Assembly: GCF_900113415.1 (NCBI RefSeq)
Contig: NZ_FOPH01000002.1
Location: 62,001 to 126,000, forward strand
Length of the DNA stretch: 64,000 nucleotides
Reading direction: 5' to 3'
DNA from: Oribacterium sp. WCC10
Lineage (GTDB): Bacteria; Bacillota; Clostridia; Lachnospirales; Lachnospiraceae
Of the stretch, positions 1 to 61,212 are shown one piece after another. The position numbers and the translations under genes were made by a program. The stretch's first letter is position 1, and every line of letters begins with the position of its first letter. A model generated the notes under the pieces. The model had not been told where the DNA came from. It searched no databases and saw only the letters and a list, made by a program, of their open reading frames with translations.

Positions 1-2
1 TT

Positions 3-125
3 ATCCTGAACGAGCAGTTGGGTTGGAGAGAGTATCCGAATGTAGGTATGATACTTCTTGTTCTGTTTATAACTGTATTTATTATTGAGTCAGTGAGTCG
101 ATGGGCTCGTAAGAAGCTGGTCTAA
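3..125 (+). CDS. phnE: Phosphonate-type ABC transporter permease, C-terminal fragment (cut by window edge)
   Basis: The frame is open from the first bases and stops at 123-125. Its 40 residues end in one hydrophobic helix followed by a basic tail (RWARKKLV), as at the cytoplasmic end of a permease. The next gene starts 12 nt downstream and is a PhnE permease, and phn operons often carry two adjacent PhnE genes, so this is read as the first of the pair. The identification rests on context and on the similar C-terminal layout of the neighbour. ATPase and binding-protein genes would lie upstream, outside the window. Confidence 0.6.
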   Translation: MLNEQLGWREYPNVGMILLVLFITVFIIESVSRWARKKLV

Positions 126-137
126 GGGGGTACTCGT

Positions 138-947
138 ATGAATGAAAGAATAATAAAGGCATATGAGAGTCGTCCAAAGGACTGGATATGGAATCTTGCT
201 ATAGCAATAGTTGTTATCGGGCTTCTTATTTGGAGTTTAGGTGCTATGGAGTCTTCTGGAACTACCACAAACGGTGGAAAGATGGCATTGAACATACTGA
301 ATGGTATCGTTCATCCGGATCAAAAGCTTCTTTTTAATCTGACAAAGGAGGGAGTTCCGTATCTTCTTCTTGAAACAATCTGTATCGCATTTATGGGTAC
401 TGTTGTGGGAGCTGTTTTTTCAATTCCTCTGGCGTTTCTGTCAGCAAGTAATCTGGCTCCGAAGCCGATTGCCTTTATAGGGCGTATACTCATCATGATC
501 ATTCGTACCGTTCCGGCATTTGTTTATGGTCTTATGTTCATCAGAGTGACAGGTCCGGGAGCTTTTGCCGGTCTTATGACTATGTCAGTTACATCAATTG
601 GTATGGTATCAAAGATGTATATTGAGGCTATTGAGGATCTGGATACAAAGATTCTTGAGTCTCTTGATGCTATGGGGTGCTCAACCTGGCAGAAGATTTT
701 ATATGGTATACTTCCTCAGTTGATGCCGAATTTTGCATCTACAGCGATCTATCGTTTCGATATAAACCTTCGTGATGCTACAGTTCTTGGTCTTGTTGGA
801 GCCGGAGGTATTGGTGCACCGCTTATCTTTGCGATGAACTCATATCGTTGGAATGAAGCCGGTTCTATACTTATCGGTCTTGTGGTTCTGGTTCTTTTCG
901 TTGAGTGGATCAGTACAAAGATTCGTGTCAAGTTGACCAGAGGTTAA
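138..947 (+). CDS. phnE: Phosphonate-type ABC transporter permease PhnE
   Basis: A 269-residue inner-membrane permease with about six hydrophobic segments, the first at residues 17-36. It carries the EAA-type cytoplasmic loop that contacts the ATPase (around residues 163-195, with EAIEDLDTKILESLDAMGC). Length and this loop fit PhnE, which imports phosphonates, phosphite or organophosphate esters with a PhnC ATPase and PhnD binding protein. The start follows a GGGGG ribosome site and lies 12 nt after the preceding permease, so the two are cotranscribed. A strong terminator follows at 956-983, so this is the last gene of the operon. The exact substrate cannot be read from the permease. Confidence 0.85.
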   Translation: MNERIIKAYESRPKDWIWNLAIAIVVIGLLIWSLGAMESSGTTTNGGKMALNILNGIVHPDQKLLFNLTKEGVPYLLLETICIAFMGTVVGAVFSIPLAFLSASNLAPKPIAFIGRILIMIIRTVPAFVYGLMFIRVTGPGAFAGLMTMSVTSIGMVSKMYIEAIEDLDTKILESLDAMGCSTWQKILYGILPQLMPNFASTAIYRFDINLRDATVLGLVGAGGIGAPLIFAMNSYRWNEAGSILIGLVVLVLFVEWISTKIRVKLTRG

Positions 948-955
948 AGTGAAAT

Positions 956-983
956 GGCGGAGAGTTTTTCTCCGCCTTTTTTG
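956..983 (+). terminator. Intrinsic terminator of the phn operon
   Basis: An 8-bp stem GGCGGAGA/TCTCCGCC with a five-base loop is followed by TTTTTT, nine bases after the permease stop. Confidence 0.9.
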
Positions 984-1078
984 TTTATGTGAGGATTAAT
1001 TAAACCCAAAATATAGCATTGGCTCTTTGTGAGGTGAGATTCTAAAGAGCTGATATTTTCGGATATAAAGGACAGTTT

Positions 1079-2725
1079 ATGAAAAAATTTGAGATATATT
1101 TCACATCGGATACTCATGGTAAGGTACTTCCTGTTGATTATGCTACAGGGAATGAGAAGCCTTGTGGTCTTTTGAATATTGCAGCTGAACTTAAAAAAAG
1201 GGGTATAGTCAGTTCTGTAAATAAAGAGAATGATCAAAATACGTTAAAGGATAGAAGTATACTATCTGATATAGAAGCCAATCTTCGTTTTTTGTCAGAT
1301 GTTTATGTTGAAAAAGAATCGGATACGCTTGTTCTTGATGGTGGAGACAGTCTTCAGGGGACACCTATGATCACATATTATCTTGATCATGCATCTGATT
1401 TTGACTTCCATCCTGTTGCAGAAGCTTTCAATGCAATGGGACTTGATTTCTATACATTGGGAAATCATGATTTCAATTTCGGTTATGATGCTATCAGAGA
1501 TTATGTAAATGCCATGAAGGGAACACTTCTTATTGCCAATGTTGAAGATTTGCGTGGCGAAATAAAACATAAGAGATATGTTATATGTACTTTAAAGAAT
1601 GGTCTGAAAGTAGGTATCACTGGAATAGTCACAGATTATGTAAATGTCTGGGAGCAGCCTGCACATCTGACTGAACTAAGAGTTTTGGATGCATTTAAGT
1701 CTGCTGATAAAGTTTATAAGGAAATGATGGATAAGGGCTGTGATATAACCGTATGCATTTATCATGGCGGTTATGAAGAGGATCTTAACACACATGAGAA
1801 ACTTACGGACAGCAGAGAAAATGTAGCCTGCGAGATTGCAAGAAATCTTTCATATGACATACTTCTTACAGGTCATCAGCATATGCCTGTATCCGGAATA
1901 GATTTGTCAGATACCTGGAGCGTTCAGCCTCCTGCTAATGCAGAACAGTATATTTCACTTCGGGCTGAGTATACAGAGGGGGAGAAGCTTAAGTGTACTT
2001 CCGAACTTGTTAATGTCGGAAATGAAACGGTTGAATCGGTTAAGCAGATGGTTATGCCAGTAGAATACAGAACTAATGAGTGGCTTGATAAGCCGGTTGG
2101 TGAATTTGATGAAGAGATAGTGCCGGAATCAAAACTTTCTGTTGCGCTTTATGGAAGCAAGGTGGCGGCACTTTTTAATCAGGTACAGCTTGAATCTGTT
2201 GATGCAGACTTCTCGTGTACGAGTCTTGGAAATCAGGAGACAGGCTTTAAAAAGAAGGTAAGTATAAGAGACGTCTATGCTGCATATACATTTGCCAATA
2301 CTTCAGTTGTGAAAGAAGTAACAGCTGAGATAATTAAGGGGGCGCTTGAAAGATGTGCAGAGTATCTTGAACTGGATGAGAATGGTAAGCCGTATATATC
2401 TGATGTCTTTATGAAGCCTAAGATAGAGCATTATAACTATGATTTCTATGCAGGTCTTGATTATGCCTTTGATCTTAGGCGCCCGGTAGGAGACCGTGTG
2501 GTGCGTATGAGAAAGCTTGATGGAAGTGAACTTGTTTCAGGTGAAAAGTACAGACTGGTTACCTCTAACTACAGATCTACAGGAACGGGTGGATATGAGA
2601 TGATTGGAAAGGCAAAGACGGTGTATAGCGGTGCAGATAATGTTCAGGATCTTCTTGTTGATTACATCAGAAAGCATCCTAAACTGTCTATCCCGGATAA
2701 CTATAGATTCGAAATAATATTCTGA
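1079..2725 (+). CDS. 5'-nucleotidase / 2',3'-cyclic phosphodiesterase-type metallophosphatase
   Basis: A 548-residue two-domain enzyme. The N-terminal metallophosphoesterase domain shows the metal ligands in order: Asp11 and His13 (SDTHG), Asp90 (GGDS), Asn129-His130-Asp131 (GNHD), a HGG block near 225 and GHQH at 265-268. The C-terminal half is a 5'-nucleotidase C domain ending in a substrate-site region with STGTGGYEM. The family hydrolyses nucleoside monophosphates or cyclic nucleotides with two divalent metals. No signal peptide is seen, since the metal motif begins within ten residues, so a cytosolic location is likely, unlike secreted UshA. AAAGGAC lies six bases before the ATG. A copy of the dispersed hairpin repeat begins right at the stop codon. 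Confidence 0.85.
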   Translation: MKKFEIYFTSDTHGKVLPVDYATGNEKPCGLLNIAAELKKRGIVSSVNKENDQNTLKDRSILSDIEANLRFLSDVYVEKESDTLVLDGGDSLQGTPMITYYLDHASDFDFHPVAEAFNAMGLDFYTLGNHDFNFGYDAIRDYVNAMKGTLLIANVEDLRGEIKHKRYVICTLKNGLKVGITGIVTDYVNVWEQPAHLTELRVLDAFKSADKVYKEMMDKGCDITVCIYHGGYEEDLNTHEKLTDSRENVACEIARNLSYDILLTGHQHMPVSGIDLSDTWSVQPPANAEQYISLRAEYTEGEKLKCTSELVNVGNETVESVKQMVMPVEYRTNEWLDKPVGEFDEEIVPESKLSVALYGSKVAALFNQVQLESVDADFSCTSLGNQETGFKKKVSIRDVYAAYTFANTSVVKEVTAEIIKGALERCAEYLELDENGKPYISDVFMKPKIEHYNYDFYAGLDYAFDLRRPVGDRVVRMRKLDGSELVSGEKYRLVTSNYRSTGTGGYEMIGKAKTVYSGADNVQDLLVDYIRKHPKLSIPDNYRFEIIF

Positions 2726-30775: not shown

Positions 30776-31804
30776 ATGACGGATAGATTAAATAACGAAG
30801 CTGTTGATATGGACGCTTCAATATGTGAAATTTCAGCAAAGTCCCGTGGACAGGTATATAGCGGTATAGGCGGGCAGGCTGTACTTGAAGGAATGATGAT
30901 GCGTAACGGACAGAAATATTCTGTGGGCGTTAGAAAGGCAGATGGAACTATAGAGGTCATGGAGGACACCTATATTTCCATGACGGATAAGTACCCGATA
31001 TGTAAGGCTCCGTTTATAAGAGGGATTTTTTCATTTGTGGATTCCATGATACTCGGCACAAGATGTCTGAATTACAGTGCTTCATTTATCGAGGATGATC
31101 CTGAGGATGCTGACAAGGAACCGGGAAAATTTGAAAAGTGGCTGAATGACACGTTCGGTGAGAAACTTGAATCAGTTATTTCCGGAATTGTTATGGTATT
31201 TTCCTGTGTTCTTGCCATTGGACTGTTTGTTTTGCTCCCTGCATGGGTTGCGAGCTTTATCAAGCCATACCTTCCACATGAGTCATTGCTTGGACTGATT
31301 GAAGGAATCATAAGAGTTGTTATATTTGTTGTTTACATAAAGCTGGTATCCAGGACTCCTGATATCATGAGGACGTTTCAATATCATGGAGCGGAGCATA
31401 AGTGTATAAACTGTGTTGAGCATGGTCTTCCTTTGACTGTGGAAAATGTTGCTGCTTCAAGCAAGGAACATAAGCGTTGCGGAACCAGCTTTATAGTTTA
31501 TGTTATGCTCATTTCCATACTTCTCTTTATGGTTATACGTTTTGATAACATCTGGCTTAAGCTTGCAAGTCGTCTGGTACTTATTCCTGTTATTGCCGGT
31601 ATAAGCTATGAGGTGCTCCGTATAGTCGGAACTTATGACAATGCTTTGACGAGGATTCTCTTCATACCGGGAATGTGGATGCAGGGCCTCACTACAAAGG
31701 AGCCTGATAACAGTGAGATAGAGGTAGCTATCGCAGCAGTAGAGAAGGTGTTTGACTGGCGTAAATTCGAGAAGGATACATTCGGAATTGAATTTGATGA
31801 GTGA
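30776..31804 (+). CDS. DUF1385 membrane protein (YqhQ-like)
   Basis: A 342-residue integral membrane protein. Family marks are GGQAVLEGMMMRNGQKYSVG at the N-terminus (residues 32-51), FIRGIFSFVDSMILG, RTPDIMRTFQYHGAEHKCIN and a cytosolic SSKEHKRCGTSF loop. Four or five helices fall between about 125 and 280. The function is unknown. DUF1385 sits directly before prmC-prfA in many Firmicutes, as here, where prmC overlaps or closely follows. Its role in this neighbourhood has not been established. Confidence 0.85.
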   Translation: MTDRLNNEAVDMDASICEISAKSRGQVYSGIGGQAVLEGMMMRNGQKYSVGVRKADGTIEVMEDTYISMTDKYPICKAPFIRGIFSFVDSMILGTRCLNYSASFIEDDPEDADKEPGKFEKWLNDTFGEKLESVISGIVMVFSCVLAIGLFVLLPAWVASFIKPYLPHESLLGLIEGIIRVVIFVVYIKLVSRTPDIMRTFQYHGAEHKCINCVEHGLPLTVENVAASSKEHKRCGTSFIVYVMLISILLFMVIRFDNIWLKLASRLVLIPVIAGISYEVLRIVGTYDNALTRILFIPGMWMQGLTTKEPDNSEIEVAIAAVEKVFDWRKFEKDTFGIEFDE

Positions 31805-56435: not shown

Positions 56436-56464
56436 TTGACGATATGACTATTTACTGTTAATAT
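56436..56464 (+). promoter_or_regulatory. Promoter of the candidate non-coding RNA
   Basis: TTGACG (56436-56441), exactly 17 bp, then TAATAT (56459-56464). The predicted start point lies near 56471, with no start codon plus ribosome site following. Confidence 0.7.
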
Positions 56465-56470
56465 CGCAAA

Positions 56471-56953
56471 GGAAAAATGCGTGAAACAGAGATGTTTTAC
56501 AAATGATTTTATTGATTGAGTAGCCGGCGGCATGCAAAGGTTCCCCGGGGAACTGGATACATGAAAGGTGGGCCCTGATAGAAAGGTCAGGAGGACTCAA
56601 ATTTTATAAGTATTTAGCGGTATCTTATAAGGCGTTGCCGATAATCAGGATATCTGTCACCTAATACTTGCTGGGTGTAGATATTGAGATTAACTGCTGA
56701 ACGGAGCATATATGCTCCATCTTGTGAAACGATCAATAGGGTTGCCTTTGTAAGCACTCTGGGTGGACGAAAAAGAAATTAAACAGAAGATAAGCGGATA
56801 TTATTTTTTGATATGACCGTTGTTGTCAAGCCGGATAGAAAAGTGTGGCTTTACGATATTCTTCCAGGACAAGAACCTGCTTATACAGGTGAGCATTTTC
56901 GTATGAGGTCGTTATACAGGCTGGAGCTTATATAGTTCCAGCCTGTTTTTTTT
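56471..56953 (+). ncRNA. Candidate ~480-nt structured non-coding RNA
   Basis: Between a good promoter and a strong terminator lies about 480 nt without a credible ORF. It contains clear local stems: GTTCCCCGGGGAAC (near 56540), CCTGA / TCAGG (near 56576), AAGTATT..AG / CTAATACTT, GGAGCATATATGCTCC (near 56705) and CCTGCTTATACAGG (near 56875). I see no RNase P, tmRNA, SRP, T-box or cobalamin core. Large ornate RNAs such as ROOL are known from rumen bacteria, but I cannot decide membership by eye. It could alternatively be a very long leader of the pot operon. Confidence 0.5.
56916..56953 (+). terminator. Strong intrinsic terminator ending the candidate RNA
   Basis: A 10-bp stem ACAGGCTGGA / TCCAGCCTGT followed by seven Ts. 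It ends two bases before the first tandem repeat unit. Confidence 0.9.
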
Positions 56954-56954
56954 C

Positions 56955-57257
56955 GCGATAAGTCCGTCAAGCGGTTCTTGGGCGTTGTGCTCGCACAAAA
57001 GACCAAAGTGGCATTTGACGGGCAACGCGGAATCGACCATCACTGATGGGAGATTGCGATAAGTCCGTCAAGCGGTTCTTGGGCGTTGTGCTCGCACAAA
57101 AGACCAAAGTGGCATTTGACGGGCAACGCGGAATCGATAATCTCCGATGGGAGATAATGATAAGGCGGTCTTCAGGACATCGTGCTTGCATGATCGTACA
57201 TATGGGCCGCCAACGTTAAATTTACCATCTTCGATGGTAGATCGGCGATTGATATAT
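56955..57257 (+). repeat. Three tandem 101-nt structured repeats in front of potABCD
   Basis: Units begin at 56955, 57056 and 57157, an exact 101-bp period. Units 1 and 2 share their first 82 bases without a mismatch; unit 3 is diverged. Each unit has a long stem enclosing a small tetraloop hairpin and then a short second hairpin. Stem sequences differ in unit 3 but still pair: TCCGTCAA / TTGACGGG becomes GGCGGTC / GGGCCGCC; TTGTG-CTCG-CACAA becomes TCGTG-CTTG-CATGA; CCATC / GATGG becomes TACCATC / GATGGTA. The third unit ends about 20 nt before the potA ribosome site. Confidence 0.85.
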
Positions 57258-57275
57258 ATCATGGAGGAAAATGCT

Positions 57276-58358
57276 TTGAGTAGAAATCTTTTGGAATTAC
57301 AGAATATCACCAAGTCTTATGACGGACAGTTAATACTTGATGATCTAACACTTGATATACATGAGAATAGCTTTGTTACATTTCTTGGTCCTTCAGGCTG
57401 TGGGAAGACCACAACTCTCCGTATCATCGGCGGTTTTGAAAAGCCTGATAAGGGCAGGGTACTTTTTGACGGTAAAGACATTACCAATCTTCCGGCGAAC
57501 AAGCGTCAGTTAAACACTGTGTTTCAGAAGTATGCACTGTTCCCTCACATGAGCATCGAGGAAAACATTGCCTTCGGCCTGAGGATAAAGAATAAGTCTG
57601 AAAGCTATATTAAAGATAAGATAAAATATGCTCTGAAGCTTGTTAACCTTGACGGTTTTGAAAAGCGTTCCATCGACTCTCTTTCCGGTGGACAGCAGCA
57701 GCGTATAGCTATCGCGAGAGCTATAGTAAATGAACCCAGACTTCTGCTTCTTGACGAGCCTTTAGGGGCACTTGACCTGAAACTTCGTCAGGAGATGCAG
57801 TATGAACTTATCAGACTTAAGAATGAGCTTGGCATCACATTTATATATGTAACTCATGATCAGGAAGAAGCTCTGACTATGTCTGACTATGTTGTAGTTA
57901 TGAACCAGGGATATATCCAGCAGGCAGGAAGCCCTGAGCAGATCTACAATGAGCCGGAGAATGCTTTCGTTGCGGACTTCATCGGAGATTCCAATATCGT
58001 TCCAGGCGTGATGCTTGAGGATTATCTGGTACGTATCTTTGGAGCGGAGTTTAAGTGTATCGATGCGGGCTTCGGAACCAACAAGCCTGTTGATGTTGTT
58101 ATACGTCCCGAGGATGTTGAGATAGTTGATGACGATGATCCTAGAGCTATTCTTCACGGAGAGATGACACACATCATCTTTAAGGGGGAAATATACGAGA
58201 TGGAGTGTACAACACCTGATGGTTTTGAGTGGCTCATTCACTCAACGGAACTTCATGAGCCGGGAAAGAAGGTTGGACTTTATGTTAAGCCTTCCAACAT
58301 CCAGATCATGAACAAGCCTGAATCTGAAGATGAGGAGGCATTGGGAGTTGAAGAATAA
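57276..58358 (+). CDS. potA: Spermidine/putrescine ABC transporter ATP-binding protein
   Basis: A 360-residue ATPase. Walker A GPSGCGKTT, Q-loop FQKYALFPHM, signature LSGGQQQRIA, Walker B LLLDEPLGALD and the H-loop VTHDQEEA; the C-terminal third is the TOBE regulatory domain. It powers polyamine import with the permeases and binding protein that follow. The start is set at a TTG (57276) eight bases after GGAGG; the ATG at 57261 lies upstream of that site, and still earlier frames run through the tandem repeats. The sequence upstream suggests RNA-level control. Confidence 0.9.
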   Translation: MSRNLLELQNITKSYDGQLILDDLTLDIHENSFVTFLGPSGCGKTTTLRIIGGFEKPDKGRVLFDGKDITNLPANKRQLNTVFQKYALFPHMSIEENIAFGLRIKNKSESYIKDKIKYALKLVNLDGFEKRSIDSLSGGQQQRIAIARAIVNEPRLLLLDEPLGALDLKLRQEMQYELIRLKNELGITFIYVTHDQEEALTMSDYVVVMNQGYIQQAGSPEQIYNEPENAFVADFIGDSNIVPGVMLEDYLVRIFGAEFKCIDAGFGTNKPVDVVIRPEDVEIVDDDDPRAILHGEMTHIIFKGEIYEMECTTPDGFEWLIHSTELHEPGKKVGLYVKPSNIQIMNKPESEDEEALGVEE

Positions 58359-59178
58359 ATCATCAAGATATCTGGCATCGCCATATATTATCTGGATAGT
58401 GGGATTCATAGTTATACCGCTTCTCACCATCGTATATTACGGTTTTACAGATAAAAGCGGAGCATTTACCTTCAGCAATATCGCGGAGATACTTGTATGG
58501 GAGAACTACAGACCGCTTTATCGTTCTCTGATTCTTTCTGCTGTAAGTACGCTTGTATGCTTCCTGTTGGCTTATCCTCTGGCGATGATTCTCCGCTGGT
58601 ACAAGATAGGAAGAGGGTCCATCATAGTGTTTATATTTATCCTTCCCATGTGGATGAATTCACTGCTCCGTATACTTGCGTGGCAGACTCTTCTGGAACG
58701 AAAGGGAGTCATTAACGGAATACTTACAGCCATGCATCTTCCGGAGCAGCATCTTATAAATACTACTGCAGCTGTACTTATCGGAATGGTTTACGATTTC
58801 CTTCCGTTTATGATATTGCCGCTCTATAACGCTCTTATGAAGATAGATGACAATACCATTAATGCAGCATATGATCTTGGTGCAAGCTTCTGGCAGGTAC
58901 TTACTAAGATCATGCTACCTCTGACAGTTCCCGGTATAGTATCCGGAGTTACCATGGTATTCGTTCCGGCCCTTACAACATTTGCTATTTCCAATATGCT
59001 GGGTGGCGGCAAGATTTACCTTATAGGAAATGTCATCGAGCAGGAGTTCATGCAGGATTCGGACTGGAATCAGGGCTCGGGATTGAGCCTTGTGCTGATG
59101 ATGTTCGTTATTGTTTCAATGCTTATCGTTAATCATTTTGACGATAAGAAGGATATGGGAAGAGGAGGAGTTATCTGA
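58348..59178 (+). CDS. potB: Spermidine/putrescine ABC transporter permease PotB
   Basis: A 276-residue, six-helix permease with the EAA loop INAAYDLGASFWQVLTKIMLPLTVPG (near 175-200). It resembles PotB (SSRYLASPYIIWIVGFIVIPLL; LPMWMNSLLRILAW). It overlaps the end of potA. The start is uncertain: an ATG at 58330 has no good site, while a TTG at 58348 lies nine bases after GGAGG and is preferred. It ends in the TGATG overlap with potC. Confidence 0.88.
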   Translation: MKNKSSRYLASPYIIWIVGFIVIPLLTIVYYGFTDKSGAFTFSNIAEILVWENYRPLYRSLILSAVSTLVCFLLAYPLAMILRWYKIGRGSIIVFIFILPMWMNSLLRILAWQTLLERKGVINGILTAMHLPEQHLINTTAAVLIGMVYDFLPFMILPLYNALMKIDDNTINAAYDLGASFWQVLTKIMLPLTVPGIVSGVTMVFVPALTTFAISNMLGGGKIYLIGNVIEQEFMQDSDWNQGSGLSLVLMMFVIVSMLIVNHFDDKKDMGRGGVI

Positions 59179-59969
59179 TGACAAAAATAAAAGAAACTCT
59201 TTCACAATGTTATCTTGCCTTTATAGTTCTGTTCATGTATGCGCCTATAGTTACACTTGTGGCGCTGTCTTTTAACAGTGGACGTTCAAGAGCGCAGTGG
59301 TCAGGCTTTACATTTGACTGGTATGCAGAGATGTGGGCTGATCAGGCTATCATGGCGGCATTGAGAAACACCATAATCATAGCTTTTGTATCGGCTTTTA
59401 TCGCTACAGTTCTTGGAACTATGGCGGCAATAGGCATTAATAATATGAGATCAGTATCCAGAAATACTGTAATGAGCATTACAAATATTCCGATGCTTAA
59501 TGCGGATATAGTTACAGGTATATCCATGATGCTGTGCTTTATTGCATTCAGAGTATCACTGGGATTTCATACCATACTTATTGCGCATATTACATTTAAC
59601 CTTCCTTATGTCATCTTAAGTGTAATGCCTAAGGTGAGACAGGCCAGCAAGGATACTTATGAAGCTGCACTGGATCTGGGAGCGACTCCGGTTCAGGCCT
59701 TCTTTAAGGTTGTGCTTCCTGAACTCATGCCTGGAATAACTTCAGGCTTTATGCTGGCATTTACCATGAGTCTTGATGATTTCATCATCACTCACTTCAC
59801 AAGAGGGGCGGGAATCGACACTATATCAACTCTCGTATATAGTCAGGTAAGAAAGGGAATCAAGCCTACAATGTATGCCCTGTCAACAGTTATCTTCCTG
59901 ACAGTATTTGTGGTATTGATGATTGGTAATTTTGCTCCGGAATGGTTTAAGAAAAGAAGGAAAGCATAA
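59178..59969 (+). CDS. potC: Spermidine/putrescine ABC transporter permease PotC
   Basis: A 263-residue, six-helix permease with FMYAPIVTLVALSFNSGRS at the start and the EAA loop YEAALDLGATPVQAFFKVVLPELMPG, followed by FTMSLDDFIITHF, typical for PotC. Its ATG overlaps the potB stop by one base, so translation is coupled. A GGAGGAG site lies eight bases upstream. Confidence 0.9.
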   Translation: MTKIKETLSQCYLAFIVLFMYAPIVTLVALSFNSGRSRAQWSGFTFDWYAEMWADQAIMAALRNTIIIAFVSAFIATVLGTMAAIGINNMRSVSRNTVMSITNIPMLNADIVTGISMMLCFIAFRVSLGFHTILIAHITFNLPYVILSVMPKVRQASKDTYEAALDLGATPVQAFFKVVLPELMPGITSGFMLAFTMSLDDFIITHFTRGAGIDTISTLVYSQVRKGIKPTMYALSTVIFLTVFVVLMIGNFAPEWFKKRRKA

Positions 59970-60060
59970 GTTTGAAGTGAACATTCAGACTTAATTGGTG
60001 GGTCAGATACGAGTCCGTATAAATCCGGAGCATGACTGGCTCATGGGGGTAATAACGAAA

Positions 60061-61212
60061 ATGGATGGAAGAGAAAAGACCGGGCTTTTGAGAATCTTTG
60101 GAAACAGAGCCATCATGGCAGCGGTTTCTGTGTTTGTCATAGCCGGTGTATCGGCATCTGCGGTAGGATGCGGTACAACAGAGAAAAACATTGAGGAGAT
60201 ACCGACTCCACTCAAGGATACATTATATGTATACAATGCCGGTGAATACATTGATCCCGAGCTTATCGATATGTTTGAAGAAGAGACAGGGATAAATGTT
60301 GTATATGATGTCTTTGAGACTCTTGAAGAGATGTATCCGGTTATCGAAGCGGGCGGAGTAATCTATGACTGTGTATGTCCGTCGGATTATATGATTGAGA
60401 AAATGCTCCAGAACAATCTTCTGCAGGAAATCAACTATGATAATATACCTAATATTAAGTATATCGGTGAAGATTATATGAAGATGGCTTCAGAGTTTGA
60501 TCCGGGCAACAAATACGCAGTTCCATATACATGGGGGACAGTCGGAATCCTTTACAATACAAGGATGCTTGATGAACTTGGAGTGCCATACCCTACAAAG
60601 TGGTCAGATCTGTGGAATCCAAAACTTAAGAATGAGATACTCATGCAGGATTCTGTGAGAGATGCATTTATGGTGGCTCTCAAGAAAAACGGTTTCAGCT
60701 GTAATACAGAGAATCCGGAGGAACTTGATAAGGCAAAGCAGGATCTGATAGATCAGAAGCCTATAGTACAGGCATATGTTATAGATCAGGTAAGAGATAA
60801 GATGATAGGCGAGGAAGCTGCTGTCGGAATCATCTATTCAGGTGAGATCCTTTACGTTCAGGATGAACTTGAAGGAACCGATGTTAATGTTGAATATGCT
60901 ATCCCTGAAGAGGGAACTAATCTTTGGATCGATGCATGGGTTATTCCGAAGAATGCAAGAAATAAAGAATATGCAGAGAAATGGATCAATTTCCTCTGCA
61001 GACCTGATGTTGCGGCAAAGAATTTTGAATATATCACCTACTCAACTCCTAATACAGGCGCTCTTGAACTATTGGATCAGGAGTATCTTGATAATAAGGC
61101 TGTATTCCCTGACACCAAGGAACTTCTCAAGACTTCTGAGTTCTATCATTATCTTGGACAAGAGGGAGATGCTCTATATAATGACCGTTGGAAGACAGTG
61201 AAATCAAGCTGA
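60061..61212 (+). CDS. potD: Spermidine/putrescine-binding lipoprotein PotD
   Basis: A 383-residue extracytoplasmic binding protein. Lipoprotein signal with lipobox AVGC (Cys37), then a type-2 binding fold: LYVYNAGEYIDPELIDMFEE, DCVCPSDYMIEKML, VPYTWGTVGILYN, EGTNLWIDAWVIPKNA, family-typical for PotD/PotF. It delivers polyamines to PotBC. The start is placed at 60061, with GGGGG eleven bases before; an ATG at 60043 is possible. It is the last gene of the operon; the terminator is at 61307. Confidence 0.88.
   Translation: MDGREKTGLLRIFGNRAIMAAVSVFVIAGVSASAVGCGTTEKNIEEIPTPLKDTLYVYNAGEYIDPELIDMFEEETGINVVYDVFETLEEMYPVIEAGGVIYDCVCPSDYMIEKMLQNNLLQEINYDNIPNIKYIGEDYMKMASEFDPGNKYAVPYTWGTVGILYNTRMLDELGVPYPTKWSDLWNPKLKNEILMQDSVRDAFMVALKKNGFSCNTENPEELDKAKQDLIDQKPIVQAYVIDQVRDKMIGEEAAVGIIYSGEILYVQDELEGTDVNVEYAIPEEGTNLWIDAWVIPKNARNKEYAEKWINFLCRPDVAAKNFEYITYSTPNTGALELLDQEYLDNKAVFPDTKELLKTSEFYHYLGQEGDALYNDRWKTVKSS

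Follow-up and report, generated by a model that had tools for sequence, protein, structure and literature searches.

Introduction

Short, dispersed and intergenic repeats that form hairpins and often appear clustered are well represented in bacteria by the REP/BIME elements with their RAYT (Y1) transposases. Intrinsic terminators, for their part, are given as the target of group IIC introns in the passages of PMC4424553 that deal with target choice. Among structured RNA families, Clostridiales-1 (RF01699) was classed as a probable RNA, not cis-regulatory, in the entry devoted to that motif by Weinberg et al. 2010 (PMC2864571), and the known spermidine riboswitch is presented as a SAM-I variant in the relevant section of PMC10853860. 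The listings of our literature searches contained no description of post-terminator repeats in Lachnospiraceae and no further work on Clostridiales-1.

The locus analyzed here belongs to a 64-kb window, the whole stretch of DNA under study, from an Oribacterium genome of 3.64 Mb in 53 contigs. It contains three head-to-tail units on the plus strand, starting at 56955, 57056 and 57157, directly before a potA-like gene. These units belong to a family scattered behind the terminators of many unrelated genes of gut bacteria, and are probably mobile DNA with a safe landing place, and not a switch of polyamine uptake.

Results

Architecture and fold of the array

The units were analyzed with a model, R1, derived from an alignment (A1) of 28 units from the own genome and its genus relatives, which was made without structural guidance. 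All three window units are among those 28, and the R1 match to unit 3 is therefore partly obtained by construction; the model covers nothing upstream of the unit. The features of the locus, all on the plus strand, are the following.

56436–56464, plus strand: promoter-like site (TTGACG, 17 nt, TAATAT), of a kind also expected there by chance
56436–56953, plus strand: conserved pot leader RNA of about 480 nt, separate from the repeats and ending at the terminator 56916–56953
56916–56953, plus strand: intrinsic terminator with a 13-pair stem (56916–56946) and a T-run to 56953; host sequence and presumed insertion target
56955–57055, plus strand: unit 1 (TRF; fold; R1 100.1 bits, unit included in the model), consisting of GCGATAAG, hairpin H1 with a CTCG loop, CAACGCGGAATCGA, H2 with tandem G·A, and GAGATT
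57056–57156, plus strand: unit 2, same architecture with an altered H2 (R1 91.1 bits, unit included in the model)
57157–57243, plus strand: unit 3, a diverged short form with a CTTG loop (R1 56.8 bits over 87 nt, unit included in the model)
57276–58358, plus strand: potA-like ABC ATPase (Pfam ABC_tran and TOBE_2; homologues)
58330–59178, plus strand: BPD_transp_1 permease (Pfam, ORF)
59178–59969, plus strand: BPD_transp_1 permease (Pfam, ORF)
59995–61212, plus strand: solute-binding protein (Pfam, ORF); 58330–61212 makes up the rest of the pot-like operon

The terminator ends 1 nt upstream of unit 1. Two starts are conceivable for the potA-like gene, an in-frame ATG at 57261, 17 nt past the end of the array, and the likelier TTG at 57276, 32 nt past it. 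From the gene order we infer that the operon is specific for polyamines. Units 1 and 2 are identical at 96 of 101 positions, including the 82-nt prefix already noticed in the original prediction, and TRF reports a period of 101 with 2.0 copies. The three starts of that prediction stand, as does its exact period of 101 for units 1 and 2, but the true length of unit 3, as placed by the covariance model, is about 87 nt and not 101. In an ungapped comparison, only 36 of 101 positions are shared between units 1 and 3. Unit 3 folds better than its shuffles on the plus strand. The same holds for all three units compared with dinucleotide shuffles (z −3.2 to −3.4), whereas the two units folded on the minus strand gave z −1.4 (unit 1) and +0.1 (unit 3).

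In the general architecture, GCGATAAG is followed by H1, which a short GCG/CGC stem encloses, by a linker of the CAACGCGGAATCGA type and by H2, the last with either a tandem G·A mismatch or a fully paired stem. Among the 102 matches aligned in a second, model-fitted alignment (A2; 100 distinct rows for covariation), 55 have CTTG as the H1 loop and 13 have CTCG, together 68 of 102. A version of H2 with arms CGAGTAG.../...CTACTCG, fully paired and lacking the tandem G·A, recurs across genera (loci L043, L092, L097, L323 and L327).

In A1, 94.6% of the cells pair versus 29–41% with slid partners, and 108 cells carry double changes versus 30.8 in shuffles, a figure that none of 500 shuffles reached. 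Double changes also appeared in 31 of 32 pairs of A2 (497 cells versus 140), an alignment that leans toward structure because it was fitted to the model, which is not the case of A1. The compensatory paired changes described in the original prediction are hence real and exceed chance. An A·C cell on one strand is a G·U on the opposite strand; G·U cells outnumbered A·C cells by 29 to 9 in A1 and by 130 to 48 in A2, which points to the plus strand as the folded one, as RNA or single-stranded DNA. Covariation and the G·U excess point to selection of the fold on this strand, in agreement with the selection on RNA or single-strand structure that had been proposed.

Relatives of the units are dispersed and mostly unconnected with potA

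Relatives of the units are found at unrelated places of the own genome. With R1 (E≤1e-3), matches were obtained for 11 of the 17 genus genomes, own included, with a maximum of 46 in one genome, and the other 6 of 17 gave no match at that threshold. In the family, R1 matched a minimum of 37 genomes out of 299; in the class, with E≤1e-5, it matched a minimum of 4 out of 391, only one of which lies outside the family. The own genome is counted in both, and both figures are lower bounds, 13 and 10 respectively of several hundred candidates per genome having been scored. Some of the matches behind the genus, family and class counts are Clostridiales-1-like, not window-like. Phage and plasmid collections contained no match (E 0.01). 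After leaving out 16 of the 121 R1 matches as opposite-strand matches at units, 105 units from 92 sources remained, which form 95 arrays, several of them orthologous (L048/L051, L042/L088, L146/L148) and hence not all independent. According to their first bases (GCGATA-like), 84 arrays were assigned to class A, and the other 11 are Clostridiales-1-like or partial. Across the family the units are non-coding and measure about 75–110 nt.

The original prediction saw in the array a tandem riboswitch or protein-binding array controlling the pot operon, a reading to which the location of the array 17–32 nt before potA and the conservation of the fold lend some weight. Nevertheless, intact units were found by R1 at only one of 16 potA loci, the window's own; these loci are the best match per genome in 16 genomes, with 57–100% protein identity (a second match in genome G012, locus L222, was left out), and the two matches at 57% identity may be paralogues. 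The same leader and terminator precede potA with no units in genomes G004, G005, G006, G008 and G013, even though PotA of G006 is 99% identical, and the potA locus of G007 retains a 5′ stub of a unit. Genes behind nine other arrays encode, according to Pfam, a TPP enzyme, an Mga/HTH regulator, MatE, GATase, argininosuccinate synthase, RecA, histidyl-tRNA synthetase, ThiF and a response regulator, and those behind further arrays appeared by eye equally unrelated. A terminator immediately upstream of unit 1 also speaks against such control. Since the homologues are scattered without pot genes and beside unrelated genes, control of the pot operon by the array fails as an explanation and retains hardly any credibility; the original prediction had rightly named a dispersed repeat as its alternative.

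Most arrays lie immediately behind intrinsic terminators

As a rule, class-A arrays directly follow intrinsic terminators, the first unit starting 0–3 nt behind the T-run. We required a hairpin of −8 kcal/mol or stronger and a T-run ending no more than 3 nt from the first unit, and applied this test to 82 arrays, as 2 of the 84 had not enough upstream sequence. Hairpin and T-run were present in 71 of 82 and the T-run in 78 of 82, compared with 30 and 158 of 1604 random positions in the same loci. Shifted positions yielded both elements in 1–4 and the T-run in 6–18 of 82–84 cases, and for the 3′ flank, read on the opposite strand, the corresponding counts were 2 and 21 of 82. Three of the 11 arrays that fail the test do have a hairpin, but a less stable one (−6 to −8 kcal/mol); among the 11 arrays outside class A, three have hairpin and T-run. 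A pattern search blind to the flanks returned 16 stretches, and all nine of those not labelled Oribacterium/JC7, two of which are loci L092 and L097 again, start 0–9 nt past a T-rich run behind a hairpin, as judged by eye. When different arrays were compared, terminator arms gave 0.299 versus 0.289 in shuffles, and units gave 0.516 versus 0.319. The terminators are thus mutually no more alike than shuffles while the units are alike, which indicates that the terminators are host sequence. At the join, TTTTTTTC is followed by GCGATAAG in this genus. In other genera TTTTTGC or TTTTTGT precedes GCGATA, and the join is TTTTTGC or TTTTTATTATGTGC, not pure T.

The terminators used include those of ordinary gene ends, that of the potA leader (by eye) and others behind leaders of attenuator or riboswitch type. 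At L140, L055 and L070, units were seen by eye at or near a terminator that follows a hydrophobic leader ORF rich in Val, Ile and Leu and precedes an ilvB-like gene; this terminator is probably a branched-chain attenuator. At L323 (1833–2177), two c-di-GMP-I riboswitches flank a unit, which seems to follow the terminator of the first one.

In 64 of 77 arrays the gene behind the array runs in the same direction, versus 50 of 80 terminators called in 400 kb of G006, and the upstream gene is co-directional in 64 of 78 arrays. The downstream excess might point to a function connected with the gene behind the array, with the reservation that the two samples were called differently. It would count for the possibility that the host uses the units as post-terminator elements, whose RNA would fold only in read-through transcripts and might serve, for instance, as a back-up processing or decay signal limiting read-through. 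The exact, oriented placement behind terminators would fit such a use, as would the strong plus-strand covariation with its G·U cells and the presence of units behind attenuator- or riboswitch-type terminators, such as those of the potA leader, the ilvB-like gene (by eye) and c-di-GMP-I. On the other side, in a unit-rich genome a loose pattern flagged a unit-like start at only 8 of 80 called terminators, and 6 of the 17 genus genomes are devoid of matches (E≤1e-3).

Presence and absence at homologous terminators

Homologous terminators are filled in some genomes and empty in others. Starting from 14 arrays, we compared 59 homologous sites, mostly of other species, chosen by hand from a longer match list, with some paralogues included and with L055 and L122, whose filled state was known beforehand, left out; a terminator was located within 320 nt in 42 of them, and in none of these 42 did R1 find a unit at it. 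One homologous site looked unit-like by a loose pattern, but R1 found no unit there, and at L264 a weak match (26 bits) occurs some 115 nt past the homologous terminator. In three close pairs of G005 and G007, the same terminator is empty in the former genome and filled in the latter. No movement of units was observed in the genomes compared. For at least five sites, two species both carry units (L140/L055, L149/L122, L048/L051, L042/L088 and L146/L148), so that some insertions are old or recurrent; an old insertion followed by loss would fit these sites equally well. At L255, the G006 homologue of the L003 site, the terminator hairpin is apparently interrupted by an end resembling that of an IS605-type element (by eye).

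These comparisons weigh in both directions on a use of the units by the host. Sites filled in two species speak for it, while the empty homologous terminators count against it, as do tandem arrays and cut last units, which resemble mobile or slippage products. On balance we hold a host function to be possible but rather unlikely. Two or three units are present in 7 of 84 class-A arrays, and in 13 of 82 the array is followed by one further unit, mostly with its 5′ side intact and its 3′ side cut; one of these 13 ‘partial’ last units, that of L049, seems complete along the 75 nt of the comparison. By eye, no target-site duplication was seen at units in the three G005/G007 comparisons, and MITE-type terminal inverted repeats were absent in three filled/empty pairs.

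A passive spread would account for several of these traits without a dedicated enzyme, if stalled or broken T-run strands paired with the A-tracts of other terminator-unit junctions and were copied onward by template switching or short conversion, leaving last units cut at the 3′ side. The junction fixed at the T-run, the variable 3′ cut, the tandem copies and the lack of visible target duplication are all consistent with it, and it requires no transposase, none having been found. Yet it offers no reason why one folded, covarying sequence should spread, and the joins of other genera are TTTTTGC or TTTTTATTATGTGC instead of pure T, so we regard passive spread as improbable.

Candidate enzymes

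Counts of Y1 transposases and of reverse transcriptases (RVT_1) do not follow unit counts in the 17 genomes, and 35 loci centred on either enzyme, including 16 reverse-transcriptase loci, contain 0 units. R1 matches but no Y1 transposase were found in G000, G003, G005, G007, G008, G010 and G015, and both in G004, G006, G011 and G013. A Y1 fragment in G006 (L350), about 240 nt from a unit and accompanied by an ORF like TnpB of IS605-type elements (by eye), was rejected as a carrier and appears to be a decayed neighbour.

Mobilization in trans by machinery of the group IIC intron type would explain the choice of intrinsic terminators, which is the target choice set out for these introns in the part of PMC4424553 cited above. 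However, Rfam scans of the unit-holding stretches gave no group II match; G013 (98% complete) has units and no RVT_1 match, while G001, G002 and G012 have RVT_1 and no R1 match. Furthermore, in the three of six genus group II introns whose 5′ flank could be read, none follows a T-run. We consider this route very improbable.

Relationship with Clostridiales-1

RF01699 has no match in the window at its gathering cut-off of 48 bits; it was the sole plausible Rfam family for the units, below that cut-off (27.6 bits at 56954–57090 for the window units; 28.5 bits at L002). R1, although built from units only, finds four RF01699 members with 45–54 bits (C15:~31283-31287, L071, L074 and L138), the first of which, in the own genome, scores 45 bits with R1 (E 4e-7) and 94.6 bits with RF01699. 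As both models weakly find each other's members, it is likely that units and RF01699 share a common core of hairpin 1, linker and hairpin 2. The original prediction knew of no described family of this form, a statement that survives in so far as the RF01699 cut-off is not reached, but not as regards kinship. By eye, a closing stem GCGATA/TATCGC may be retained in units from other genera.

RF01699 has 51 matches in the own genome, 25 of them over the cut-off. Perfect 5-bp duplications flank 8 of the 8 copies in which both terminal repeats are present:

L014–L017 and L031–L033, own genome: eight RF01699 MITE copies, 197 or about 270 bp long, each between 5-bp target duplications

Terminal repeats at both ends together with the duplications identify these eight of 25 copies as MITEs. 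As the six top-scoring copies lack terminal repeats, this status need not extend to RF01699 as a whole.

A conserved leader RNA precedes potA

The leader upstream of the array is present as a single copy, always before potA, in each of seven genomes, and 235 of the first 293 columns of their alignment (A3) are invariant. It had no convincing family match in Rfam, an exact pattern search found none in viral contigs, and a DNA similarity search of 200 family genomes, including one other genus genome, retrieved it from the own genome only. About 23 nt separate the leader T-run from the potA Shine-Dalgarno in G006, and for this reason potA would probably depend on read-through.

A diverged homologue of the leader was found in G015 (L384, about 1273–1702, minus strand), with its own promoter-like site and terminator (by eye), in front of an Orn/Lys/Arg decarboxylase gene (2–1222, minus strand; PF01276, E 1.8e-65). 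With L384 included, 148 of 378 columns are invariant; double changes appear in 19 of 93 predicted pairs, some pairs being broken in L384. Through this homologue the leader RNA would be connected, in one genome, not only with the uptake of polyamines but also with their synthesis. The leader, not the repeats, is the better candidate for a polyamine regulator at potA. That it acts as a polyamine-responsive attenuator or switch is a lead and not proven, because it stems from one diverged homologue.

Discussion

We are inclined, with moderate confidence, to interpret the units as non-autonomous, terminator-targeted mobile repeats. This reading builds on their dispersion, their adjacency to terminators, the covarying plus-strand fold, and their presence or absence at homologous terminators. 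Against it stand the failure to find a matching enzyme among Y1 transposases and reverse transcriptases, the lack of visible target duplications and of observed movement, the sites filled in two species, the 11 of 82 arrays that fail the terminator test and the excess of co-directional downstream genes. Such elements would enter directly on the 3′ side of intrinsic terminators, oriented like the terminator itself, and would sometimes build short tandem arrays. Their mobility may be non-autonomous, an enzyme supplied elsewhere presumably recognizing the folded plus strand, as RNA or single-stranded DNA, and joining the GCGATAAG end of the unit to the terminator T-run. The site behind a terminator could act as a safe haven, where no gene would be damaged and little transcription would take place. 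In the window, the array would have landed between the pot leader terminator and potA, and might ride passively in the read-through mRNA.

A bolder version would take the units as a new class of tiny bacterial retro- or single-strand elements, whose folded plus strand, with no ribozyme or gene, a host or borrowed enzyme joins to terminator T-runs; terminators would then be a genome-wide landing pad and Clostridiales-1 the wider, partly DNA-transposed kin. We put this forward as speculation, more likely wrong than right by a clear measure.

The family combines a covarying RNA-like fold with a genomic address of unusual precision, namely the bases that come first after an intrinsic terminator, so that how and why small structured repeats choose their sites becomes directly testable. 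Some genomic copies of Clostridiales-1, published as a structured RNA family, are mobile DNA, which calls for caution in RNA-motif discovery. Moreover, attention at the locus moves to the upstream leader RNA, common to polyamine uptake and, in one genome, to an Orn/Lys/Arg decarboxylase gene.

Among known systems, the spermidine riboswitch exemplifies the RNA control of polyamine genes that the original prediction had assigned to the units. Unlike it, units and leader lack a SAM-I match at a relaxed E-value and match no Rfam family at the cut-off. The units resemble bacterial MITEs as small, presumably non-autonomous repeats, but neither MITE-type terminal inverted repeats nor target duplications were seen at three sites by eye. 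With REP/BIME elements they share their small size, their dispersed and intergenic location, the formation of hairpins and clustering; in contrast to the REP/BIME-RAYT systems, the own genome has no Y1 match, the covarying two-hairpin fold is longer and the placement is exactly behind T-runs. Like group IIC introns, the units directly follow intrinsic terminators (71 of 82 arrays), although they measure only about 75–110 nt, occur in tandem arrays, and have neither a group II match in Rfam scans nor an inner reverse transcriptase gene. RF01699 is a likely relative. The window units differ from it by lacking a third hairpin and a closing stem of their own, the alignment running into the next unit for both, and by their strict location behind terminators, whereas RF01699 copies here occupy mixed intergenic spots, some of them behind terminators. 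Both have in common, in this order, an ATAAG-type 5′ strand, a long hairpin with a CUUG-type loop, an ACAAC/CAACG linker and a second hairpin with tandem G·A.
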